From: Sedimentisphaerales bacterium
GTDB taxonomy: Bacteria > Planctomycetota > Phycisphaerae > Sedimentisphaerales > Anaerohalosphaeraceae
Reading direction: 5' to 3'
Length of the DNA: 37,649 bases
Assembly: GCA_016926155.1 (NCBI GenBank)
Contig: JAFGPC010000111.1
Span: forward strand, 1 to 37,649
Shown here: positions 14,447-25,530 of the stretch, piece by piece
How the letters are laid out: each line of letters begins with the position of its first letter
Position numbering within the stretch: the first letter of the stretch is position 1
Notes under the pieces: generated by a model
Database searches by the model: none
Told to the model about the DNA's origin: nothing
The model's input: the letters and a program-made list of their open reading frames with translations, nothing else
Made by a program: the position numbers and the translations under genes

Positions 14447-14920
14447 ATGAGTATGGTAGAAAATACCGAACTTCGTGAATGTCTCTGGAGCAGCGTGTCC
14501 GAGGCGTTTGACACCATGATTTCCCTTCCTCTGGAACGTGTGGAGGAACAAGATACGATCCAATATAATGGATTGCTTCTGGCCGCGACAATTACCTTTA
14601 CCGGTCATATTAAAGGCTCTCTGATTCTTCTATGCAGTGCAGGATGCGCAAAGAAAATTGCCCGCGCCATGCTGATGCTGGAAGAGGACCAACCCATCGA
14701 AGAGAATGAAATGAATGATGCGTTGGGCGAGGTTGTGAATCTGGCTATTGGCGGATTTAAGAGCCGCCTGCTGACTATCGGTGACGAAATCAAAATTTCC
14801 ATTCCCACAGTAACCAAAGGCCGTGATATGCGGCCGATATTAGGCACAGGTGCCGAATCTTTCAGTCTTTTTTCCGAGACGCAAGGACACACTTTCGAAT
14901 TCCTTTTCACCTATAAGTAG
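14447..14920 (+). CDS. CheX-like chemotaxis phosphatase family protein
   Basis: This 157-residue protein resembles CheX, which dephosphorylates the response regulator CheY-P. The diagnostic E-x-x-N motif appears once, as E95-V-V-N98 within L-G-E-V-V-N-L-A-I-G-G, the single-copy arrangement of CheX rather than the two copies of CheC. The strand pattern G-H-I-K-G-S-L-I-L-L around residues 53-62 and the final I-P-T-V region fit the fold. No cheA, cheY, receptor or flagellar gene lies in the window, so its target may be a stand-alone receiver domain. The ATG at 14447 has no strong Shine-Dalgarno. Function is inferred from the motif and length only. Confidence 0.8.
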   Translation: MSMVENTELRECLWSSVSEAFDTMISLPLERVEEQDTIQYNGLLLAATITFTGHIKGSLILLCSAGCAKKIARAMLMLEEDQPIEENEMNDALGEVVNLAIGGFKSRLLTIGDEIKISIPTVTKGRDMRPILGTGAESFSLFSETQGHTFEFLFTYK

Positions 14921-14986: not shown

Positions 14987-15024
14987 TTGCCTTTTGTTTT
15001 ACTAATGGGTAGAATCATCATTCA
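14987..15024 (+). promoter_or_regulatory. Leaderless-type promoter for the exonuclease gene
   Basis: TTGCCT (14987-14992) and TAGAAT (15010-15015) are separated by 17 bases. The -10 ends eight bases before the ATG at 15024, so the mRNA would start about 0-2 bases before the start codon. The bases between (CATCATTC) contain no Shine-Dalgarno sequence. Confidence 0.5.
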
Positions 15025-15515
15025 TGAAACATCGCTGTTACCTGGATATTGAGACAACCGGGATCCGTTGGAACGGATATGACATTACAGTGATCGGTCT
15101 GGGCTTTGAACATGACGATACAGTCGAAGTGGTTCAACTTGTCGGTGAAGTCATTACGGATAATAGACTGTTGGAAGCCCTGTCAGACGTGGACACAATC
15201 TACACATATAACGGTAGCCGGTTTGATCTGCCCTTTATCCAACAACAGTTGGGAGTGAATCTGAAGGAGCAGTTCATTCATCACGATCTGATGTACGACT
15301 GTTGGAAAAACAATCTCAAAGGGGGTCTTAAGGTTGTCGAGGGAAAACTTGGCATCTTTCGTACTACTAAAGGCGTTGATGGCTGGATGGCGATACGGCT
15401 TTGGTGGGATTATATCAATCATCACAATCTCCAATCCCTTGGGACGTTATTGCAATACAACCGGGAAGATGTGGCCAATTTGCGTATTCTCCGTGAAAAA
15501 CTCAATGTATTATAA
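15024..15515 (+). CDS. YprB-type 3'-5' exonuclease (RNase H-like fold)
   Basis: This 163-residue protein is a compact DnaQ-superfamily exonuclease. Motif I is L-D-I-E-T-T-G (residues 7-13, with Asp and Glu metal ligands). Motif II is Y-N-G-S-R-F-D-L-P-F near residue 62, and motif III is Y-N-R-E-D-V near residue 148, giving a DEDDy active site. It matches the YprB-like RNase H_2 domain family, which usually occurs with TPR or helicase modules; here it stands alone. The substrate, whether RNA or DNA 3' ends, cannot be told. The start has no ribosome-binding site and looks leaderless. It converges on the aldo/keto reductase gene with 66 AT-rich bases between. Confidence 0.85.
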   Translation: MKHRCYLDIETTGIRWNGYDITVIGLGFEHDDTVEVVQLVGEVITDNRLLEALSDVDTIYTYNGSRFDLPFIQQQLGVNLKEQFIHHDLMYDCWKNNLKGGLKVVEGKLGIFRTTKGVDGWMAIRLWWDYINHHNLQSLGTLLQYNREDVANLRILREKLNVL

Positions 15516-16712: not shown

Positions 16713-17621
16713 TTATCGCGGTTTGTGCAGAAATCCGATGGTGGATTCCATGATGCGTTTTTGGAGGTGCTGAGACTTGTCTTCAGCGGTTTGTTCCTGC
16801 AGGTCGGTCAGATTGGCCCGGCAGAAATGACACCCGAGTTTGTTCAGATGGAATTTGACATAGTCGTGCCAGTTACCGTCCAGAGTACCAAGCATATAAG
16901 CGCCTATGGTACTTCGTTTTGGGCAGCTAAGCCGGCCGGCCTCCCATACCTGCGTAAGCAGATCTTCCAGTTGTGTTTCTTGGGTGACGTTGAGTTTACT
17001 TGAGGCCGCATGGTCACGGACCTGCTTGAGGCAGCGATGTTTAATGACGGCGATATTCCGCTCGTTGATTTCGACGATTCGCGCCACGTCTTTGTTGGAA
17101 AACTGACAGTAAAATAAAAGTTCAACAATTTGCATGTCCCGAAAATTCAAGGTGCTTTTATAATTGTCAACCAGGACGGTCAATGCCTCGGATAGGGTGG
17201 AACGCAGCAATTCATTCTGTTCATCCTTCCTGGCATAGAAACTTGCTGTCATTTCGTCCGAGGGCATTGCGCTGAAGGCGTCACTGTCGCCGATCGTTCG
17301 CTGTGTTCTTTGATAAACATCCTGCAGTAGGCAAATGTGCTTGGAATGAGCGCTGCGGTAACTGTTGATAATCTTGCGTCGCAGAATAGTGAACAGATAG
17401 GTTTCAATTCCGGCGTCGGCTCGGAAGCTGCTCAAGCCGGTCAGAAAGGCGATAAACGTATCCTGAATAATATCCTCGGCATCGGCGCGTTGACCCAGTT
17501 TGGCCCTGGCAAAAGACAAGAGACGCCCCCTATACCGCGTGACCAGTTGTTCCCAGGCATGTTGGTCTCCGGAGCGAATCTGCTCCAGTAATACCTCTTC
17601 AGCCTTGCTGATCCCGCTCAT
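16713..17621 (-). CDS. ECF sigma factor with C-terminal ZAS-like Cys/His segment
   Basis: This 302-residue sigma-70 family protein is of the ECF type. Sigma2 lies at about residues 12-85 with A-D-A-E-D-I-I-Q-D-T-F-I-A-F and T-Y-L-F-T-I-L-R-R-K. A longer than usual linker follows, then sigma4 at about 155-215 with a helix-turn-helix in F-S-N-K-D-V-A-R-I-V-E-I-N-E-R-N-I. About 85 further residues follow. They hold C233-P-K-R-S-T-I-G-A-Y, H258 and C264-H-F-C267, resembling the zinc-binding anti-sigma (ZAS) pattern but with H-x5-C-x2-C instead of H-x3-C-x2-C. The ATG at 17621 has AGAGGAG directly upstream. It follows the kinase and membrane genes on the same strand with a 131-base gap that holds AT-rich promoter-like sequence. 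Regulated genes are unknown. Confidence 0.88.
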   Translation of the reverse strand: MSGISKAEEVLLEQIRSGDQHAWEQLVTRYRGRLLSFARAKLGQRADAEDIIQDTFIAFLTGLSSFRADAGIETYLFTILRRKIINSYRSAHSKHICLLQDVYQRTQRTIGDSDAFSAMPSDEMTASFYARKDEQNELLRSTLSEALTVLVDNYKSTLNFRDMQIVELLFYCQFSNKDVARIVEINERNIAVIKHRCLKQVRDHAASSKLNVTQETQLEDLLTQVWEAGRLSCPKRSTIGAYMLGTLDGNWHDYVKFHLNKLGCHFCRANLTDLQEQTAEDKSQHLQKRIMESTIGFLHKPR

Positions 17622-17660
17622 CTACTCCTCTTTACATTGTTTCCAGTCTTGCAATAGGGC

Positions 17661-17710
17661 GATATAATATCCACCAGAATATATTGTGATGGGATTTATT
17701 ATAACGTCAA
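17661..17710 (-). promoter_or_regulatory. Candidate promoter region of the ECF sigma gene
   Basis: Minus-strand TTGACG (17710-17705) lies 16 bases from CACAAT (17688-17683). A consensus TATAAT also occurs at 17703-17698 but lacks a good -35. The 11-base near-palindrome GATATAATATC at 17661-17671 lies just downstream of the predicted start. Autoregulation by an ECF-specific sequence cannot be assessed here. Confidence 0.35.
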
Positions 17711-17752
17711 TAGAAAATTGATTGATCCCGGCAATTTGATTTTTACCTTACC

Positions 17753-19207
17753 TTATGCGAAGTTCAGGATTATAAACAGACCAATTAACCCCAGAACGAT
17801 TGCCGCAATACGGAGAGACCATGTATAATATCCCCGGGTGGCGGCATTGAGGAAGGCATACACGATGCAGATCAAACCGGCGATGCCGAGGAAGGTCAAG
17901 ATCATTTTGGCCCAGGTAATCCGCTCGATCCGCATGATGGCGGTTTTCTCCTGTGTGAGCGGAGCCATTTTAGGTTCGGAGGTATCGATCAATAAGGCCG
18001 TTCGGTAGATGGGGCCGGCGGCGCCGTAAAACTGTTGGGTGAATCGGTCGAAGATCATGCCACGACGTTCCAGGTCAACCGGGCTGACCGAGAAAGAACG
18101 GTCCAATACCCGGTCGGGCGTACGGGCTCGAACCTGATTGATCATATGAGCCACCTGACGGGTCGCCTGAGTCATGGCCTCCCGTTCCGCCTGGGCCTGG
18201 GATGTCGCCGAAGTGGTCGAACGCGCCAGGACATACGAACGCTGGCGATCCTGTGACTGAAACTGTGGAAAATCCAACAGCCAGGGCTTCTCGTGGTATC
18301 GGACCTGTGCTTCGGCGAAACGATCGAAGTATTTTACTGTCAGGACAAGCAAGCCGGTAAGCTGTCGGGTAGTCGCATCATCGGAATGCAAATAGTGGAA
18401 TCGTTCATCCTCTTTTTGAAGCTTGAAGGTCAGGATTTTTTGAGCTACAAGCTGTGAGTCAACCGATTCGGCCACATCCACACTTTGTACTATCTCGGCG
18501 TCCATCCCGAGTTGTTTGTTCAGTTCACGTTGGAACAAAGGCGTGAAATCCTTGTTGTAGACCCACACCTGAGAAGGCCTTTCCTCTCCGGCTAAAACCT
18601 TCTGGACCAGCTTATCCGCCTGACGGGCCAGGGCCGCTACCGCCGCCTCCTGCGAGGGATACACATCCGCCGGCATCTCCTGCTCGACGCCCTCATGCCA
18701 AATGGGAGGCAGTCCTTCCTCTATGGGAAGGCTGGAGACGACGGAAAAGGAATCGTCCCACTGCCCGGCAGAAGATTCTATGGAAGGTGGTCTCACCGGT
18801 TGGTTGGCATATGGAATCGTCGCAACACGAGTGTGGCTGAAAGTGAGGAATCCAAAGGCCAGCAATCCGAATACGAAGCAGAAAACCAGAATACTCGCGA
18901 GTATTTTTCCGGGATTTTTGCTTTTTGCAATCAGGAGAATAAAAGTGATAATTCCCAGGAGAATGGGTAGGAACAAGATGGGGGATGCCCCGACTCTTGG
19001 AACAACGTGAGTGGTATTGGAAACTATGGGCGCCAGGGCAAAACCGGCAAATCGTATGACAAAGATCAAAACCACAAAGATCCCACCTGCGATCAATAGT
19101 CCGGGAATCACCTTTTTACCGTGTTTAACAGACAATGCAATGGTGATTATTATGGCAACTCCGAGGAATGCCAACACTAACAACTCAATTGCACCGATCA
19201 TAGCCAT
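17753..19207 (-). CDS. Six-segment membrane protein with a large soluble domain
   Basis: I do not recognise this 484-residue protein. Four membrane segments lie at about residues 5-26, 33-58, 76-94 and 103-125, and two more at about 431-452 and 461-482. Between them is a soluble region of about 300 residues, probably on one side of the membrane. That region has a predicted alpha/beta character, with a Ser/Ala/Thr-Gln rich helix near T-S-A-T-S-Q-A-Q-A-E-R-E-A-M-T-Q-A and no obvious catalytic motif. The start at 19207 has GAGG seven bases upstream and lies 26 bases after the kinase stop, so it should be cotranscribed with the kinase. The context suggests a substrate or partner of the kinase at the membrane; that is inference only. 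Confidence 0.75.
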   Translation of the reverse strand: MAMIGAIELLVLAFLGVAIIITIALSVKHGKKVIPGLLIAGGIFVVLIFVIRFAGFALAPIVSNTTHVVPRVGASPILFLPILLGIITFILLIAKSKNPGKILASILVFCFVFGLLAFGFLTFSHTRVATIPYANQPVRPPSIESSAGQWDDSFSVVSSLPIEEGLPPIWHEGVEQEMPADVYPSQEAAVAALARQADKLVQKVLAGEERPSQVWVYNKDFTPLFQRELNKQLGMDAEIVQSVDVAESVDSQLVAQKILTFKLQKEDERFHYLHSDDATTRQLTGLLVLTVKYFDRFAEAQVRYHEKPWLLDFPQFQSQDRQRSYVLARSTTSATSQAQAEREAMTQATRQVAHMINQVRARTPDRVLDRSFSVSPVDLERRGMIFDRFTQQFYGAAGPIYRTALLIDTSEPKMAPLTQEKTAIMRIERITWAKMILTFLGIAGLICIVYAFLNAATRGYYTWSLRIAAIVLGLIGLFIILNFA

Positions 19208-19233
19208 GTCTATACCTCATTTTCTCTGTCGTG

Positions 19234-22200
19234 CTAGATTGCACTGGTTATTGCCTTATGTTTTCTGGGCGGCCAGGCCAGGATAAATACCGAAAGGATA
19301 AACACACCGGCGGCCGTGTACAGCGGTGTTACCTGTACGGTATTTAAAAGCGAGTTCCATGCCTGTTCAAAGTTTTTCTGCTGTAGGGCATTGGCCAGCA
19401 TGGCGCCATTCGTATGGGCAAAGGCCGAAGCCAGAATGGTCTGTACCGCCAGCAATCCAAAAATACCCATCATCGCCCGCAGAATATACATAGCTCCGCC
19501 ATTTCGGCGTCCGATGATCAGCAAAGTAGCTGCGATCAGGAAGAGAAGAACGGTAGCGATGGAGCTGATCTGTGTGAGCATCGCAGGCCAGTTTGAAGTA
19601 TGTAAAACATTGCCGATTTCCTCCCCGAGATGGGGATCCGGGAAACCCGCAGCAATAATATCCGGAGTATGTACGGCCGTAGCCAGACCGACCAGCAAAG
19701 CGACCAACAGAATGATATGCCCCAGGAAGCCGCAGATCCACGTGATCGGATTGAATGAATGACGGGGAACAATCGGATGCATTCGATGCGAAGAAACAGG
19801 GGAGTAGGATGTGGATTGCTGTCCGGATTCCATTGTCTGGACCGGTTCTGGAGCTTGATGGACAGCCTGTTCTCGCTTGGCTTGTTCGCGTGCAACGGCG
19901 GCTTGTTTGACATTTTCCGGCATTTCTTTCCCTGTCAATTCAGCTTCATTTTCCCACATTAAAAGGACACGACCCTGCGCATCTGTGAACTGTCCGGTCA
20001 GGATCAGTATGGCATCGATAATCTGGCCGATCACGAACAATCCGCCGGTGAAGAACCAGAGAAGGCCGGTACCGATCTTACCAACATAGAACCGATGCAA
20101 TCCCGGCAGGCTGACGAAAAAGCCACCGCACATGATCAATGCCCAGATCCGCTTATATGGACTCACTCCCGGCACCGGTCCGGTATTAGTCGATACCGGT
20201 GGTTGTGGCTGATGGTGGACTTGTTTTCTTTCTTTGCTTTGACTGAATAAACCCAATGCAATAAAGCTTGTCACAAAGCCAAGTCCGCCTATGACAATCA
20301 ATGGAATACCGATAGCTTCCGGAATAATCCTGTCATCCATCAGCATCACAGATCCAATGATCGTCAGTATGCACAAAGCGCTGATGACCGGTTGGAGTAA
20401 ATATCCATACCAACTGCAAAAACGCGTCTGGAAGACACGAATGAAAGACATAAGACCCAGCCACAAGGAAGCAACACCAACACCAATAAAAGGCTGCACA
20501 TGTTCTTCCTCAGCAAAAATAATCGCCCCGATACCAAAGCCGATTAAAATGATAAATGCCAACATCCATAACATACGGATGCTACCGGGCACCCTGTGTC
20601 CTTTGTAGATAGATCCTGAATTATGAATCGCTTGTGGCCTTGATGCCGCCTGTTGCTGGACGTTCTGTCCGGCGCTCTGTGGTATAGGAGGCGCTGGAGA
20701 AGCTTGAGGCCTTGGACTTGGTCCCGGTTTTTTCTGTTTTTCGTGATATGCATGAATCGCACTGCGCGTCATGCAAAATGGTGTCAGAATCTGGACTACC
20801 AGGGAAGCGCCTGCCAGGATACCAGCACATAGTACGTTCTGTCCGTGCAGGATCAAGCCGATGATATAGGCTACAAAACCAGCCCATAAGGCATGTCCCA
20901 GTTGAACGCGTTTTTCCCGGTCGGGTGTGCTTACTTTCCACCAGTCAGTTAAACAGACGGCCAGGGCGATAGCAAGCCATGTTCCCTGTCTGGCAGACGA
21001 AGAACCGAAAATTCCCCCAAACATTACGGCCATGATTCCCAGGGGGATTGCTACAATGGCACCGAGCGCGAAACGGCGTAACCAGATTGATTCTTCTTCT
21101 AAATTGCCTAACCATTTGTAACGAGACCAGAGAATAAGTTTGCCGGCTGTGAAAATCATCACGATGGTTAGAAAAGCCACTGGAACAATCATAGAGCTGT
21201 GTCCGCTTAGCATTCCTACACCAACAGCAATCACAGCGGCGGAGATGATCGCTAGAATCTGTCGTTGATGTTTGGAGACTGGATCTGTAGCGGCAGCTTC
21301 CAACAGGATCTGGGGATACGGCTTCGCTTCCGGCTTGCTATTCCGGGGTGCTGCAGTCGGTTTCGGTTGAGGAATCGGCGGAGGCGTATCGGCATGGCCA
21401 GGTGTTGGACGAGCCTGCGGTTTGTTCTTGATAGCGATCTTCTCGGCCACAACGGAAAGACTCTGCGGAGAAAACTGAGACACGCTGTTACGGATATGAT
21501 CCGAACCGAAGACATCTTCAATCATTTCCTGAACAGTCTGGTATCGCTCTTCCGGATCTTTGGCAAGAGCCTTGCGGATGACCCGTGCAAATGTCTCATC
21601 CACTCCGGTCAAGTCCGGCTCGGAACTCATGTGTTTCATCAGCACTTCGGCGGGGCTGTTTCCAAAGAAGGGCACCTGTCCGGTGAGCATCTCGTACAGG
21701 ACGATGCCCAGGGCGTAAATATCGATGCTTCGGTTATAGCAGCCGGCCCCGATCTCCGGGGCCATATAGTGAACGGTCCCGACCGTGATGGTCTGCCCGC
21801 TGTGCCGGCTGGTATTCATGGCTTTGCTTAAGCCGTAATCCCCGATCTTGATCCCTCCGTCTTCATAGAAAATATTGCTGGGTTTCAGATCTCTGTGCAC
21901 AATCCCACATTCGTGGAGATAGTTAAGCCCTTTGGCAATTTCGCGCAGGAAGAAGGCGGCTTTTTGCGTTCCTAATCCACCCCGTGATTCCTGGATCAGA
22001 TCTGCCAGAGAAGGACCGCTGACATATTCCATGATCACAAAGGGACGCCCTTGGTTGTTGTATTTGACATCGAAAATCGTGACCAGATGCGGACTCTTGA
22101 GGTTCATGCACTGGTTGATGCCACGAAGCTCGATCTGTTCATACGTCTGTAACGTTTTTAGGGCGACCTGTTTGCCGCTGTCGCTAATAGCGTAGTAGAC

Positions 22201-22287
22201 TTCTCCGAAGCCGCCGCGACCCACCCCTCGCTGGATCGTGTACCCCTCCAGAGGTCGGTCACCATATTGGTATTGGAATCTCTGCAT
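19234..22287 (-). CDS. Membrane Ser/Thr protein kinase with TM2 domain
   Basis: This 1017-residue protein has an N-terminal Hanks-type kinase domain (about 15-270). It shows the glycine loop G-V-G-R-G-G-F-G (21-28), the ATP lysine K44, H-R-D-L-K-P-S-N (131-138), D-Y-G (150-152) in place of D-F-G, A-P-E (176-178) and D189 in D-I-Y-A-L-G. The catalytic residues are present, so it is probably active, but the alpha-C glutamate position looks like Gly56. A Pro-rich linker follows, then about six membrane segments, a second linker, four more segments, a TM2 domain (near residues 720-790, with G-L-H-R-F-Y-V-G), another linker and four final segments. It is much larger and more hydrophobic than PknB-type kinases and has no PASTA repeats. 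GGAAG precedes the ATG. Genes on both sides are probably functionally linked. Confidence 0.92.
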   Translation of the reverse strand: MQRFQYQYGDRPLEGYTIQRGVGRGGFGEVYYAISDSGKQVALKTLQTYEQIELRGINQCMNLKSPHLVTIFDVKYNNQGRPFVIMEYVSGPSLADLIQESRGGLGTQKAAFFLREIAKGLNYLHECGIVHRDLKPSNIFYEDGGIKIGDYGLSKAMNTSRHSGQTITVGTVHYMAPEIGAGCYNRSIDIYALGIVLYEMLTGQVPFFGNSPAEVLMKHMSSEPDLTGVDETFARVIRKALAKDPEERYQTVQEMIEDVFGSDHIRNSVSQFSPQSLSVVAEKIAIKNKPQARPTPGHADTPPPIPQPKPTAAPRNSKPEAKPYPQILLEAAATDPVSKHQRQILAIISAAVIAVGVGMLSGHSSMIVPVAFLTIVMIFTAGKLILWSRYKWLGNLEEESIWLRRFALGAIVAIPLGIMAVMFGGIFGSSSARQGTWLAIALAVCLTDWWKVSTPDREKRVQLGHALWAGFVAYIIGLILHGQNVLCAGILAGASLVVQILTPFCMTRSAIHAYHEKQKKPGPSPRPQASPAPPIPQSAGQNVQQQAASRPQAIHNSGSIYKGHRVPGSIRMLWMLAFIILIGFGIGAIIFAEEEHVQPFIGVGVASLWLGLMSFIRVFQTRFCSWYGYLLQPVISALCILTIIGSVMLMDDRIIPEAIGIPLIVIGGLGFVTSFIALGLFSQSKERKQVHHQPQPPVSTNTGPVPGVSPYKRIWALIMCGGFFVSLPGLHRFYVGKIGTGLLWFFTGGLFVIGQIIDAILILTGQFTDAQGRVLLMWENEAELTGKEMPENVKQAAVAREQAKREQAVHQAPEPVQTMESGQQSTSYSPVSSHRMHPIVPRHSFNPITWICGFLGHIILLVALLVGLATAVHTPDIIAAGFPDPHLGEEIGNVLHTSNWPAMLTQISSIATVLLFLIAATLLIIGRRNGGAMYILRAMMGIFGLLAVQTILASAFAHTNGAMLANALQQKNFEQAWNSLLNTVQVTPLYTAAGVFILSVFILAWPPRKHKAITSAI

Positions 22288-22398
22288 GATTTGCTTCCGT
22301 TTCGTTCAGAATTCCCTGTGACGCCTCACTTTTATTACTTTTCTCACTTGAAAGACCAACACGTTGCCAATTCTTAAAGACCCTTCTGTGGTCGATTT

Positions 22399-22420
22399 GT
22401 GACGAGATTCAGTTCGTCAC
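22399..22420. repeat. Hairpin between the FHA-like gene and the kinase gene
   Basis: GTGACGA and TCGTCAC form a perfect 7-bp stem with an 8-base loop in the 147-base gap between two minus-strand genes. No T run follows on either strand, so it is not a standard terminator. It could tune expression of the kinase relative to the upstream genes, or stabilise the mRNA. Confidence 0.4.
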
Positions 22421-22434
22421 GCACTATTATCTTT

Positions 22435-24018
22435 TCATTCACACCGGCGGGCCAGCACCAGATTTAATTTTCCGACCTGAATGGCCGTATCCAGCGGCAG
22501 CGGCATCTCCTTTGAACCGCTCTTTCCCTCGATAATCAGCGGTTCGTCCGTGCGACAATAAAGTCGATCGTTTTTCATGTAAAATGTAATGGTTTCATGG
22601 ATGTCATTGGTGCGAATATGGTTTCCTATGCCGGGACCGACAAGGATCTCACGATCCATCAGGATCACGTGATTGATGTCGGGCCGAGGCAGACGGGCGC
22701 TACTCAGTTGTAGTGTGGCCGTGGTGCTGGCGGCATTCGGCTTATGAAACCGCATACGACATCGCATAGAAAGGGCGATTTTATCGCCATCGGTCAGTAA
22801 CTTTTCACTAATCTGTCGTTCTCCGATGTGAATGGGCTCTCCACTGCGGAGAATATAATCTTCGTCATGCCGTTCAATCGTCGCTGTGGGCAGATGAGCG
22901 GCCGCCATCAAGGCCAGAGTAGGTTGCTGGGAAGAACTGATCGGGCCAATCGTGACCTTGCTGTCTCGGACGGTCAAAAAAGCGCCCACTCCGTCGATTT
23001 GCATGACGAATCGGGATGGGAGAGTATCATTGTTGGCGGCAGTTTCCGATTTGGGCTGCATGGGCTCGGTCTTTCGTTCGAAAATCGCTTCCTGTTCCAT
23101 CTCCTGGCTGACTTCATTCTCCGAACTTTGGACTTCCAGTAATCCCAAGGGACCGGTATGAAGAATGTCCATCGCTTCGGCAGCCTTTTGTGCTTGGCTG
23201 TGGGCTTCACTGATCCACTTGGCATGAGGCAGAAGGAGCTTAAGTTTGGCCAGAGACTGCGCAGCCTGGCGACAATGGCCTACGTATAAATCATTTGCTG
23301 CTCGATGACAATGTTTTAACGCATCACGGAATTTGTTCAGATCGACATTGCCGCAATCTAAAGCATCTGCTTTCTCGAGGAGATGAGAGGCGACATCAAT
23401 CCAGCCTTGATTTAACTGATCGGCAATCTGATCAGTGGCCCTGGCTTTGACTTTGCAACATAGCTCCGCTAATGGAGCGTGTTGATTCCGTCCCGGGCCG
23501 GCATAAAGCAGAAGTTCGATAGCCCCGGTCAAATCATCCCGCTTTAAGGCCTGTTCCACCTTTTCCACGGCGGCTTCACTCTTTTTTCGCTCTGTTTGGG
23601 CCTGTTGTTTAATCCGATCTGCATCCGGATGTTCGACGGTGTCCAGAATATTTACACCGACTGTCAGCCAGCCCTTGTCAATCTGTTCCTGTGCATTTGC
23701 CAGCATCTGGGCCCGCTGTTGATGGGTATATTGCTTGGCTTCCATGACCTTGCAGATCGCCCGTCGCAGTTCGGCGATTTCATTGCGATTGCCGCCTAGC
23801 TTGTCGGCCTTGTTACAGTCATTCAAGGCATGACTGAGCCGCTCGGCAGACAGATGTTCATTTCCTCGCCGGGTTATCGCCTGGGCCAGTCTGGCCGTCA
23901 GTTTCTGACCTTTCCGGCACTGGCCGAGCTTTGAATCATCCTGGATCAGACGATAGGCCTCATCAAGCTGGCCGTCACGCATAGCACATTCAATCTGTTT
24001 GAGCCGTATGTTAAACAT
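22435..24018 (-). CDS. Helical-repeat protein with two degenerate FHA-like domains
   Basis: This 527-residue soluble protein has two parts. Residues 1 to about 300 are helical, with TPR-like spacing of A-x-R-x-L and L-N-x-G-W-x-x-V-A repeats. Residues about 336-427 and 450-527 look like beta-sandwich FHA domains: the first has V-T-I-G-P and L-L-T-D-G-D-K-I-A-L, the second I-L-V-G-P and a similar end. FHA domains normally bind phosphothreonine through Arg, Ser and Asn-Gly residues. Here the (I/V)-G-R signature reads (I/V)-G-P in both copies and the Asn-Gly pair is missing, so phosphopeptide binding in the usual way is doubtful. There is no signal peptide or membrane segment. Its place just before the kinase suggests an adaptor that links kinase and partners. 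The FHA call is by pattern, not by search. Confidence 0.65.
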   Translation of the reverse strand: MFNIRLKQIECAMRDGQLDEAYRLIQDDSKLGQCRKGQKLTARLAQAITRRGNEHLSAERLSHALNDCNKADKLGGNRNEIAELRRAICKVMEAKQYTHQQRAQMLANAQEQIDKGWLTVGVNILDTVEHPDADRIKQQAQTERKKSEAAVEKVEQALKRDDLTGAIELLLYAGPGRNQHAPLAELCCKVKARATDQIADQLNQGWIDVASHLLEKADALDCGNVDLNKFRDALKHCHRAANDLYVGHCRQAAQSLAKLKLLLPHAKWISEAHSQAQKAAEAMDILHTGPLGLLEVQSSENEVSQEMEQEAIFERKTEPMQPKSETAANNDTLPSRFVMQIDGVGAFLTVRDSKVTIGPISSSQQPTLALMAAAHLPTATIERHDEDYILRSGEPIHIGERQISEKLLTDGDKIALSMRCRMRFHKPNAASTTATLQLSSARLPRPDINHVILMDREILVGPGIGNHIRTNDIHETITFYMKNDRLYCRTDEPLIIEGKSGSKEMPLPLDTAIQVGKLNLVLARRCE

Positions 24019-24313
24019 GGGCTTGCCCCGCTGTTACCGGTTGGCGCATCCTGACAGTTGGACGATCCATACCGTATTCTACCAAGTTCCCGTATCCTTC
24101 GCAAACCATGGTCTTTGTGCGAACTACACGTTGGGATTGATCGTGTGAATCATATGATGTCGGAATATAAGGAGTATAATCGGCTTCGAACGGATCACAG
24201 GCCCAAGGACACAGATCCGACCGACCGAAAGCGCAACAATCGCATGTTGCTTTTCCTGTTCGGTCGGTTCGGACCTGTTTGACTTGTCGTGTTGTGTTCG
24301 TTGGTAAGACCAT
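24011..24313 (-). CDS. Possible small Cys-containing protein
   Basis: This 100-codon frame ends eight bases inside the start of the FHA-like gene, the kind of overlap seen with translational coupling. The sequence has a cluster of cysteines (C-D-C-C, then L-C-P-W-A-C) followed by a Tyr/Pro-rich stretch (D-P-F-E-A-D-Y-T-P-Y-I-P) that looks protein-like. Against it, the only ATG (24313) has no Shine-Dalgarno sequence and the family is unknown to me. Without it, the 339-base gap between two genes of the block is unusually long for this region. If real, the cysteines might bind a metal. Confidence 0.35.
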   Translation of the reverse strand: MVLPTNTTRQVKQVRTDRTGKATCDCCAFGRSDLCPWACDPFEADYTPYIPTSYDSHDQSQRVVRTKTMVCEGYGNLVEYGMDRPTVRMRQPVTAGQAHV

Positions 24314-24357
24314 TGTTATTCATCCGTTTATGGTTGCTTCCTTCCCTATAAGTAGGC

Positions 24358-25188
24358 TTAGTTGACGGCGACCAGGGATTCGGTTTTCTGGATTTCCTTG
24401 CCGCCGGTTTCCTTGGGGGCAAAGTGTTGGTCGATTTCCTGGAGCAATTCGGTTTCCTGGACAGCATCGACGGGTACGCTCTGGACGAAGTGGCTTTCGT
24501 ATGCCAAGACCTTCTCAGCGACATCCAGACGTTTCTTAATCTCACCGATCAGCTTTTCGGTCTGGGCAATCTTGCTGTTATCGAACTGTACACCCGATCC
24601 GATAGTACTGGCCTTGAGCAGACGGTGCTTGGCCTGCAAGGCCTCGATTTTGCTGGCCAGAATCCGCTTTTGCGTCCGAGCCCTGTCCAGCATCTGCATA
24701 GAGGCGGCCAGCGCGTTTTCACGGGTGCTGAGCATTTGTTTTTTGCTGACTAGTACGATCTGGGCCTCTTTGAACCGCTCAAAACGCCAAGCCAGGTCCT
24801 GCTTGAGTTCCTCGCGATTGTAATCCCGGCCGGCAAAGGTATATGTGGCTTTTTGTGTATTCAGGCAGTTGCGAAGGGCCTTGATCCGAAGTTCTTCTTC
24901 GGTAAAGGATTCCTCACTGCGCTCCAGATCGGACTTGAGGGCGGCGATTTCCACTTCTTCCTGGGCAATCAGCCGTATATTCTGGTGAATTTCCGGCATG
25001 ATTTCATCCAGAAGCTGCTGGGCCCTCTTCAGTTCAAATTCGATCGGAACCGAATCCTTGACCGTGGAACGAGTCCAGTTGGCGCAGGATTTGACATAGC
25101 TGATGGCCTCGGTTCCGAAGACCAATCCACCCACAACGGCTACGGCTGCGGTGATGATGACACCTCTTTTGAACCATTTCCACAACAT
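24358..25188 (-). CDS. Membrane-anchored coiled-coil protein
   Basis: This 276-residue protein has a single N-terminal membrane segment (about residues 9-27, after the basic W-K-W-F-K-R) and then long helices with strong heptad character, about 50-110, 130-185 and 205-250. The short break at T-F-A-G-R-D-Y-N-R-E may be a turn between two antiparallel helices. The membrane anchor plus hairpin coiled coils resemble scaffold proteins of the PspA/IM30 kind only in outline, and no family can be named. AAGGAG upstream of the ATG is the best ribosome-binding site in the block. It is the first gene of the minus-strand signalling run and may recruit or space the kinase and its partners at the membrane. 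Confidence 0.75.
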   Translation of the reverse strand: MLWKWFKRGVIITAAVAVVGGLVFGTEAISYVKSCANWTRSTVKDSVPIEFELKRAQQLLDEIMPEIHQNIRLIAQEEVEIAALKSDLERSEESFTEEELRIKALRNCLNTQKATYTFAGRDYNREELKQDLAWRFERFKEAQIVLVSKKQMLSTRENALAASMQMLDRARTQKRILASKIEALQAKHRLLKASTIGSGVQFDNSKIAQTEKLIGEIKKRLDVAEKVLAYESHFVQSVPVDAVQETELLQEIDQHFAPKETGGKEIQKTESLVAVN

Positions 25189-25530
25189 GACAATTCTCCT
25201 TAAAACATTTCTTGGTAATCACTTACGTTCTTTTCAATTGATTTAGAGCTTTGGGCTTTCTCAGCCCTTTCATAGGTGTTGTCACAGGGCATAGCGGCTT
25301 ATTTCAGGATCAGGCAGGGAAATTCAAAGAGATTTTTTAAAATAACTTCAAAATAAGGATAGGGATATACGTTGAATGGGACTGAAAGATGCATGGATTT
25401 AGGAATTATAATAAAAAAATCTCAAGCACGCCTTTTTTGGGTTGAATTGCTCGGCATGGTCCTATAAACTGTTAGCTTCCCACCCGGTATGGAGAGAATC
25501 AGAGGTTTTTAACATTGTGGAGGATCGTGT
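25189..25530. other. Divergent intergenic region
   Basis: This 342-base gap lies between the coiled-coil gene (-) and the propeller gene (+). It contains a small GGGCT/AGCCC hairpin at 25253-25267, an isolated TATAAT at 25407-25412, and a possible + strand promoter at 25442-25468 (TTGAAT, 15-base spacer, TATAAA). I found no convincing promoter for the minus-strand signalling block, although one is expected here. No RNA gene or ORF was recognised. Confidence 0.4.
25442..25468 (+). promoter_or_regulatory. Possible promoter of the propeller gene
   Basis: TTGAAT (25442-25447) and TATAAA (25463-25468) are good hexamers, but the spacer is only 15 bases. The leader would be about 56 bases and contains the strong GTGGAGGA ribosome-binding site before the ATG at 25531. 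Confidence 0.3.

Follow-up and report, generated by a model that had tools for sequence, protein, structure and literature searches.

A kinase, FHA-fold protein and ECF sigma factor gene block recurring across Planctomycetota as a putative envelope-signalling operon

Several described systems resemble parts of the locus analyzed here. In the ECF43 pairs (EcfP/PknT, EcfK/PknS) the gene of a transmembrane Hanks kinase adjoins that of an ECF sigma factor, and in EcfP and EcfK the DAED motif of sigma region 2.2 is replaced by a phospho-acceptor motif; EcfP-type sigmas, which lack DAED, are activated by phosphorylation at that site (PMC8999054). A C-terminal Cys/His domain on the sigma factor itself is found in ECF48, ECF52, ECF53 and SCO4117, in the form of a fused ZAS-type anti-sigma extension. 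In Planctomycetes, STK-linked ECF groups were reportedly named by Jogler in 2012 and by Wiegand in 2020, and what these groups have in common with our locus is the presence of ECF genes near Ser/Thr kinase genes. YscD/PscD have FHA folds without the canonical binding residues, and the Psp/Lia systems would share with the locus an envelope-stress theme and a toastrack-like target gene. Planctomycetes have many ECF sigmas and kinases, and a conserved gene set for which a promoter and candidate targets can be named makes their wiring testable.

The whole stretch of DNA analyzed (37,649 nucleotides, from here on the window) belongs to a draft genome of 5.0 Mb in 222 contigs, where it makes up contig C164. 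The features that concern us are the following, from the promoter to the last gene of the block:

25279..25306, minus strand, ECF-like promoter TGAAAT-N16-TGACAA, 5' of CC, the first gene
24358..25188, minus strand, CC, 276 aa, one N-terminal hydrophobic segment as membrane anchor and a coiled coil of ~240 aa
24011..24313, minus strand, small Cys-containing ORF, outside the conserved unit, weak match only in locus L089
22435..24018, minus strand, FHA-like protein, 527 aa, TPR-like helical region at 1-300 and two FHA-fold domains at ~335-527
19234..22287, minus strand, Hanks-type kinase, 1017 aa, kinase domain at residues 16-256 and a polytopic membrane tail with TM2 at 716-760
17753..19207, minus strand, membrane protein MP, four TM segments, an alpha/beta domain of ~240 aa and two TM segments
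16713..17621, minus strand, ECF sigma factor, sigma part at 1-205 and ZAS-like tail at 212-302

The ORF coordinates bear out the initial annotation, which had placed the five genes here on one strand (they are all on the minus strand), and its description of the last three products agreed with what we found. The kinase, described as having about 14 membrane segments plus TM2, matched Pfam Pkinase (E 1.3e-51) and TM2 (E 2.5e-9) and has ~14-16 hydrophobic segments past residue 340; the membrane protein encoded 26 bases further on had been given six segments, and six TM helices are present in its structure model; and the ECF sigma with a ZAS-like tail matched Sigma70_r2 (E 6.6e-17) and ends in a Cys/His tail. 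CC, the FHA-like protein and MP of the window gave no Pfam family at the cut-off. A CheX-like gene (14447-14920) and an RNase_H_2-like gene (15024-15515) are neighbours outside the block.

With respect to the ECF43 pairs, the operon of the window differs in its intact DAED motif, its Cys/His tail and its three further conserved partners. Compared with ECF48/52/53 and SCO4117, the extension of the window sigma has no transmembrane helix and shows an H-x5-C spacing, and the operon adds the kinase, FHA and membrane partners. The FHA fold is like that of YscD/PscD (VIA Z 9.3-9.5, rmsd 2.2, 89 residues), likewise without the canonical residues, but here it is joined to a TPR-like helical region and lies within a kinase-sigma operon. 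Unlike the Psp/Lia systems, the operon would be under ECF-kinase control, and its CC is not detectably PspA. ECF sigmas adjoining kinases are already known; what appears to be new, within the literature searched (the papers naming planctomycete STK-linked ECF groups were outside it, and neither the unit, nor its promoter, nor the target genes were found in it), is the five-gene unit with its promoter and candidate targets.

A search for MP in 148 related genomes gave matches in 45, and the gene neighbourhoods of these were compared by blastp. All contigs of sufficient length kept the order CC, FHA, kinase, MP and sigma on one strand, and the arrangement is shared by many genera of Phycisphaerae and by Pirellulales. 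Identity to the window proteins was 75-85% for the kinase domain, 46-65% for the sigma, 34-56% for the FHA-like protein, mostly 25-38% for MP and about 50-60% for CC, with a span of 46-62% for CC in Phycisphaerae relatives. Named genomes were also searched independently, starting from CC, and yielded 79 loci, again in the five-gene order, from Phycisphaerae, Sedimentisphaerales and Phycisphaeraceae and, at 28-37% identity, from Pirellulales, Thermoguttaceae, Blastopirellula and Rhodopirellula. At 78 loci (some being the same genome counted twice) the sigma gene follows that of the kinase within 5.5 kb on the same strand. Four loci depart from this: L104 and L114 lack sigma, L121 has it upstream of CC in divergent orientation, and L084 is a kinase from the window's own genome that is unrelated to the block. 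The arrangement in L121 (8853-10866) is an inversion of the usual order. Among relatives the kinase and MP genes commonly overlap by 1-4 bases, which suggests translational coupling. Two contigs of one genome (G124, contigs C162 and C163, loci L049 and L050) have very similar copies of the kinase-MP-sigma end, by duplication or an assembly split. No flanking gene family was conserved to a comparable degree around the loci of the relatives, and therefore the unit consists of CC, FHA, kinase, MP and sigma.

In several more distant families, where the kinase model is that of a general kinase domain and its assignment rests on position plus match, the parts appear in the rearranged order FHA-MP-KIN-SIG-ZAS-CC (L306, L307, L308, L311), so that their association is not due solely to common descent of a single block; their retention after rearrangement is strong evidence of a functional unit. 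One family (L316, L317) has only FHA-KIN-SIG(+tail), without CC or MP, which are therefore not always needed; this may be the system in its smallest form. Across 294 Planctomycetota genomes CC was found in 59 and the sigma family in 50 (40 with both, 10 with sigma only, 19 with CC only and 225 with neither; Fisher P 2e-25), a P value that overstates the case because the genomes are not independent, the neighbourhoods being the stronger evidence. The genes had been proposed at the outset to form one functional block, to be checked by comparing neighbourhoods, and this grouping survives: homologues were clustered, not scattered, with sigma close to the kinase, order and strand were kept though flanking genes vary, and the parts recur reordered. 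That the grouping is due to chance, or to unrelated genes hitch-hiking together, is contradicted by the conserved order, the reordered versions and the co-occurrence of CC and sigma, and its probability is practically negligible. Judged from sequence comparison, the five genes can be taken as confirmed as one evolutionary unit, a genuine signalling operon recurring across Planctomycetota.

The sigma factor belongs to the ECF type (group 4), with regions 2 and 4 and no region 3; region 4 came just under the Pfam cut-off and TIGR02937 gave 82 bits against a cut-off of 42.9. Its region 2.2 DAED motif is intact, and all 24 sequences aligned have D47 and D50. The tail has the arrangement C233-x24-H258-x5-C264-x2-C267, invariant in all aligned sequences, both fused and separate copies, although its H-x5-C spacing departs from the usual ZAS pattern (H/C)-x24/25-H-x3-C-x2-C and Pfam zf-HC2 was marginal, below the cut-off. 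Pirellulales encode the sigma part and the tail, which has the same four Cys/His there, in two genes that are often neighbours. This pattern of fusion and fission indicates that the tail is a partner of the sigma, and by analogy with ZAS anti-sigma factors we infer that it inhibits it. The tail ends in RIMxSTxGFL; S293, T294 and G296 do not vary among the 24 sequences from Phycisphaerae, and in Pirellulales SS/ST-G is mostly kept. An ECF52-like sigma with a membrane-anchored extension was ruled out, the window sigma being devoid of any hydrophobic segment.

The kinase is of the Hanks Ser/Thr type, with K44, H131-R132-D133, N138 and D150-Y151-G152 invariant, and looks active. It is not a PknB/PASTA kinase (no PASTA match in Pfam; PknB_PASTA_kin at 219 bits, under the cut-off of 450), and a defence system was also discarded, the PADLOC matches being essentially to the kinase domain alone, as with any Hanks kinase. 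The model of the FHA-like protein (65 sequences, mean pLDDT 92) has helices over residues 1-300 and two beta domains at ~335-527, in agreement with the two degenerate FHA-like domains that had been described. The FHA chains of YscD, PscD, CT664, Slr1951, EmbR and ArnA were among its fold matches (Z 8-9.5, rmsd 2.2-3.8 across 87-96 residues), the FHA of EssC was the best Foldseek match (8.6e-4), and the Pirellulales orthologues pass the Pfam FHA cut-off; by model, fold matches and orthologues these are FHA domains with the beta-sandwich fold. Phosphothreonine readers conserve Arg, Ser, His and Asn in their binding loops, a set that was not found here: in Phycisphaerae, including the window, the G-R and S-R-x-H residues that bind phosphothreonine are missing, and in Pirellulales S-R-R-H is kept and GQ replaces GR. 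The FHA domains may bind proteins independently of phosphothreonine. Of the signalling role first suggested, the block itself, the membrane partners, an active-looking kinase, an adaptor with FHA fold and an ECF sigma with a ZAS-like tail hold up, and the plain scheme of kinase as writer and FHA as reader has become doubtful for this lineage.

In the model of MP (pLDDT 79) an alpha/beta domain at 174-408 follows four TM helices and precedes two more. Because of the positive charge of the loops HGKKVI, KSKNP and ATRGYYT, a positive-inside reading places the alpha/beta domain outside the cytoplasm, presumably in the periplasm. No convincing PDB match was found for this outer domain, the best VIA hits (Z 7.3) being to unrelated enzymes, with weak Lpp20-like and HP1454-like rows also among the PDB matches. 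In CC a single N-terminal hydrophobic segment follows a basic start, suggesting that its coiled coil also lies outside the cytoplasm. CC was considered as a PspA-like protein and the idea found no support (hhalign probability to PspA_IM30 0.5%, no Pfam match). A tandem pair of PspA genes is present in the window's genome, on contig C158 (G000:C158:32561-33992; L259, L267).

The small Cys-containing ORF had been listed as a possible member of the block, and we have rejected it as a core part because the gap between CC and FHA is only 17-170 bp in most relatives. Its C-x2-C...CPxACDPFxxD stretch recurs as a weak match in the same gap of one close relative (L089) and was absent from the further close relatives inspected, so that the ORF may be a small gene specific to its lineage.

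Paired words were searched in the regions upstream of CC. Of 66 distinct regions, 25 have AATAA-N14-CGAC, and in shuffles no word pair was present in more than 5. With a position matrix, TGMAAT-N16-CGACyA was detected at 57 of the 66 loci. In a held-out test 27 of 39 loci scored above the 99% null at spacer 16, against 0-5 at other spacers; the held-out loci are related to the training loci, a few coming from the same genomes, and are not fully independent, and this sharp dependence on spacer length is a better control than the split itself. Most sites are located 93-99 bases ahead of the CC start codon, and that of the window (25306-25279) scored 16.1 against a 99% null of 11.4. Ahead of the four inner genes the motif was essentially absent (0/94, 1/96, 0/90 and 0/75), and the Pirellulales upstream regions searched gave no motif clearly above shuffles. 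An ECF-like promoter on the first gene only is the layout expected of an autoregulated ECF operon and suggests that the sigma switches on its own operon; another ECF of similar preference could also read it. The conservation of this promoter adds to the evidence for the sigma as the output.

We read the block, with a probability of roughly 0.6, as an autoregulated envelope-stress signalling operon in which the kinase acts on the tail and the sigma is freed. The periplasmic domain of MP and CC would sense the state of the envelope and act on the membrane kinase, which, with the TPR-FHA protein as scaffold, would act on the Cys/His tail directly or through that scaffold. The ZAS-like tail would keep the sigma inactive until then, and the freed sigma would transcribe its own operon plus a few envelope genes, for instance one for a toastrack-like lipoprotein and one for a membrane protein of 220 aa. 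Speaking against this reading are the FHA domains without phosphothreonine-binding residues, the H-x5-C spacing and marginal zf-HC2 score of the tail, the failure to find the motif in Pirellulales and the families that do without CC and MP. It is conceivable, although somewhat short of an even bet, that there is a phylum-wide ECF class whose DAED-intact sigma is freed from a fused or separate ZAS-like domain by a membrane kinase together with a TPR-FHA scaffold; that release by kinase and scaffold stands in, within that class, for the canonical proteolysed anti-sigma is put forward just as tentatively. In cultured Pirellulales the target protein of the kinase could be sought, and whether its modification frees the sigma from the ZAS-like partner.

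Other ways of connecting kinase and sigma have to be considered. If the system worked like EcfP/PknT, the kinase would phosphorylate sigma region 2, providing the negative charge for RNA polymerase binding, and the vicinity of kinase and sigma genes, as in ECF43 (PMC8999054, PMC13147305), fits this. However, the invariant D47 and D50 of an intact DAED set this sigma apart from the EcfP/ECF43 type, so that such activation is not expected, and with the conserved Cys/His tail also speaking against it we regard it as quite improbable. The tail might instead sense metals or redox by itself, the kinase controlling other things such as envelope remodelling and the sigma only maintaining expression of the operon; the four invariant Cys/His speak for this, and some ECFs with Cys-rich extensions do sense metals (PMC8999054), but most of the families examined keep the sigma next to kinase and FHA, also where CC and MP are missing, making this unlikely. 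Finally, the kinase could phosphorylate the invariant Ser-Thr in the RIMxSTxGFL end of the tail and thereby release it from the sigma, in line with the conservation of S293, T294 and G296 and of SS/ST-G in Pirellulales; conservation of these residues may be structural, and we consider this switch rather doubtful.

Candidate targets of the sigma elsewhere in the genome were sought with the motif. The window's genome has 7 copies of TGAAAT-N16-YGACWA and 2 of the reversed control, and the strict pattern gave 19 sites against 4 reversed in 24 operon-bearing genomes, 4 of the 19 being the operons themselves. The genes recurring downstream code for the toastrack-like lipoprotein, a 220-aa protein with one TM segment and an ABC ATPase. 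Similar ABC ATPase genes lie behind the motif in two genomes (L214, L216). The gene of the 220-aa protein was detected in three genomes and has the motif in each of them, at positions from -68 to -80. That of the toastrack-like lipoprotein (assigned through DUF4097 at a marginal Pfam score) follows the motif in five genomes, one of which is that of the window (G000:C101). Orthologues with the motif amounted to 5 of 12 in operon-bearing and 0 of 17 in operon-free genomes (P 0.007), although three of the five sites had suggested the family in the first place and without them the comparison is 2 of 9 against 0 of 17, not significant. Toastrack proteins have been tied to membrane stress in other phyla (PMC11237479). 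In operon-free genomes (L240, L247, L231, L230, L234) toastrack-like genes are often found behind a different ECF-like element, e.g., GAAAC...GCGACTAA, and there another ECF may control them.
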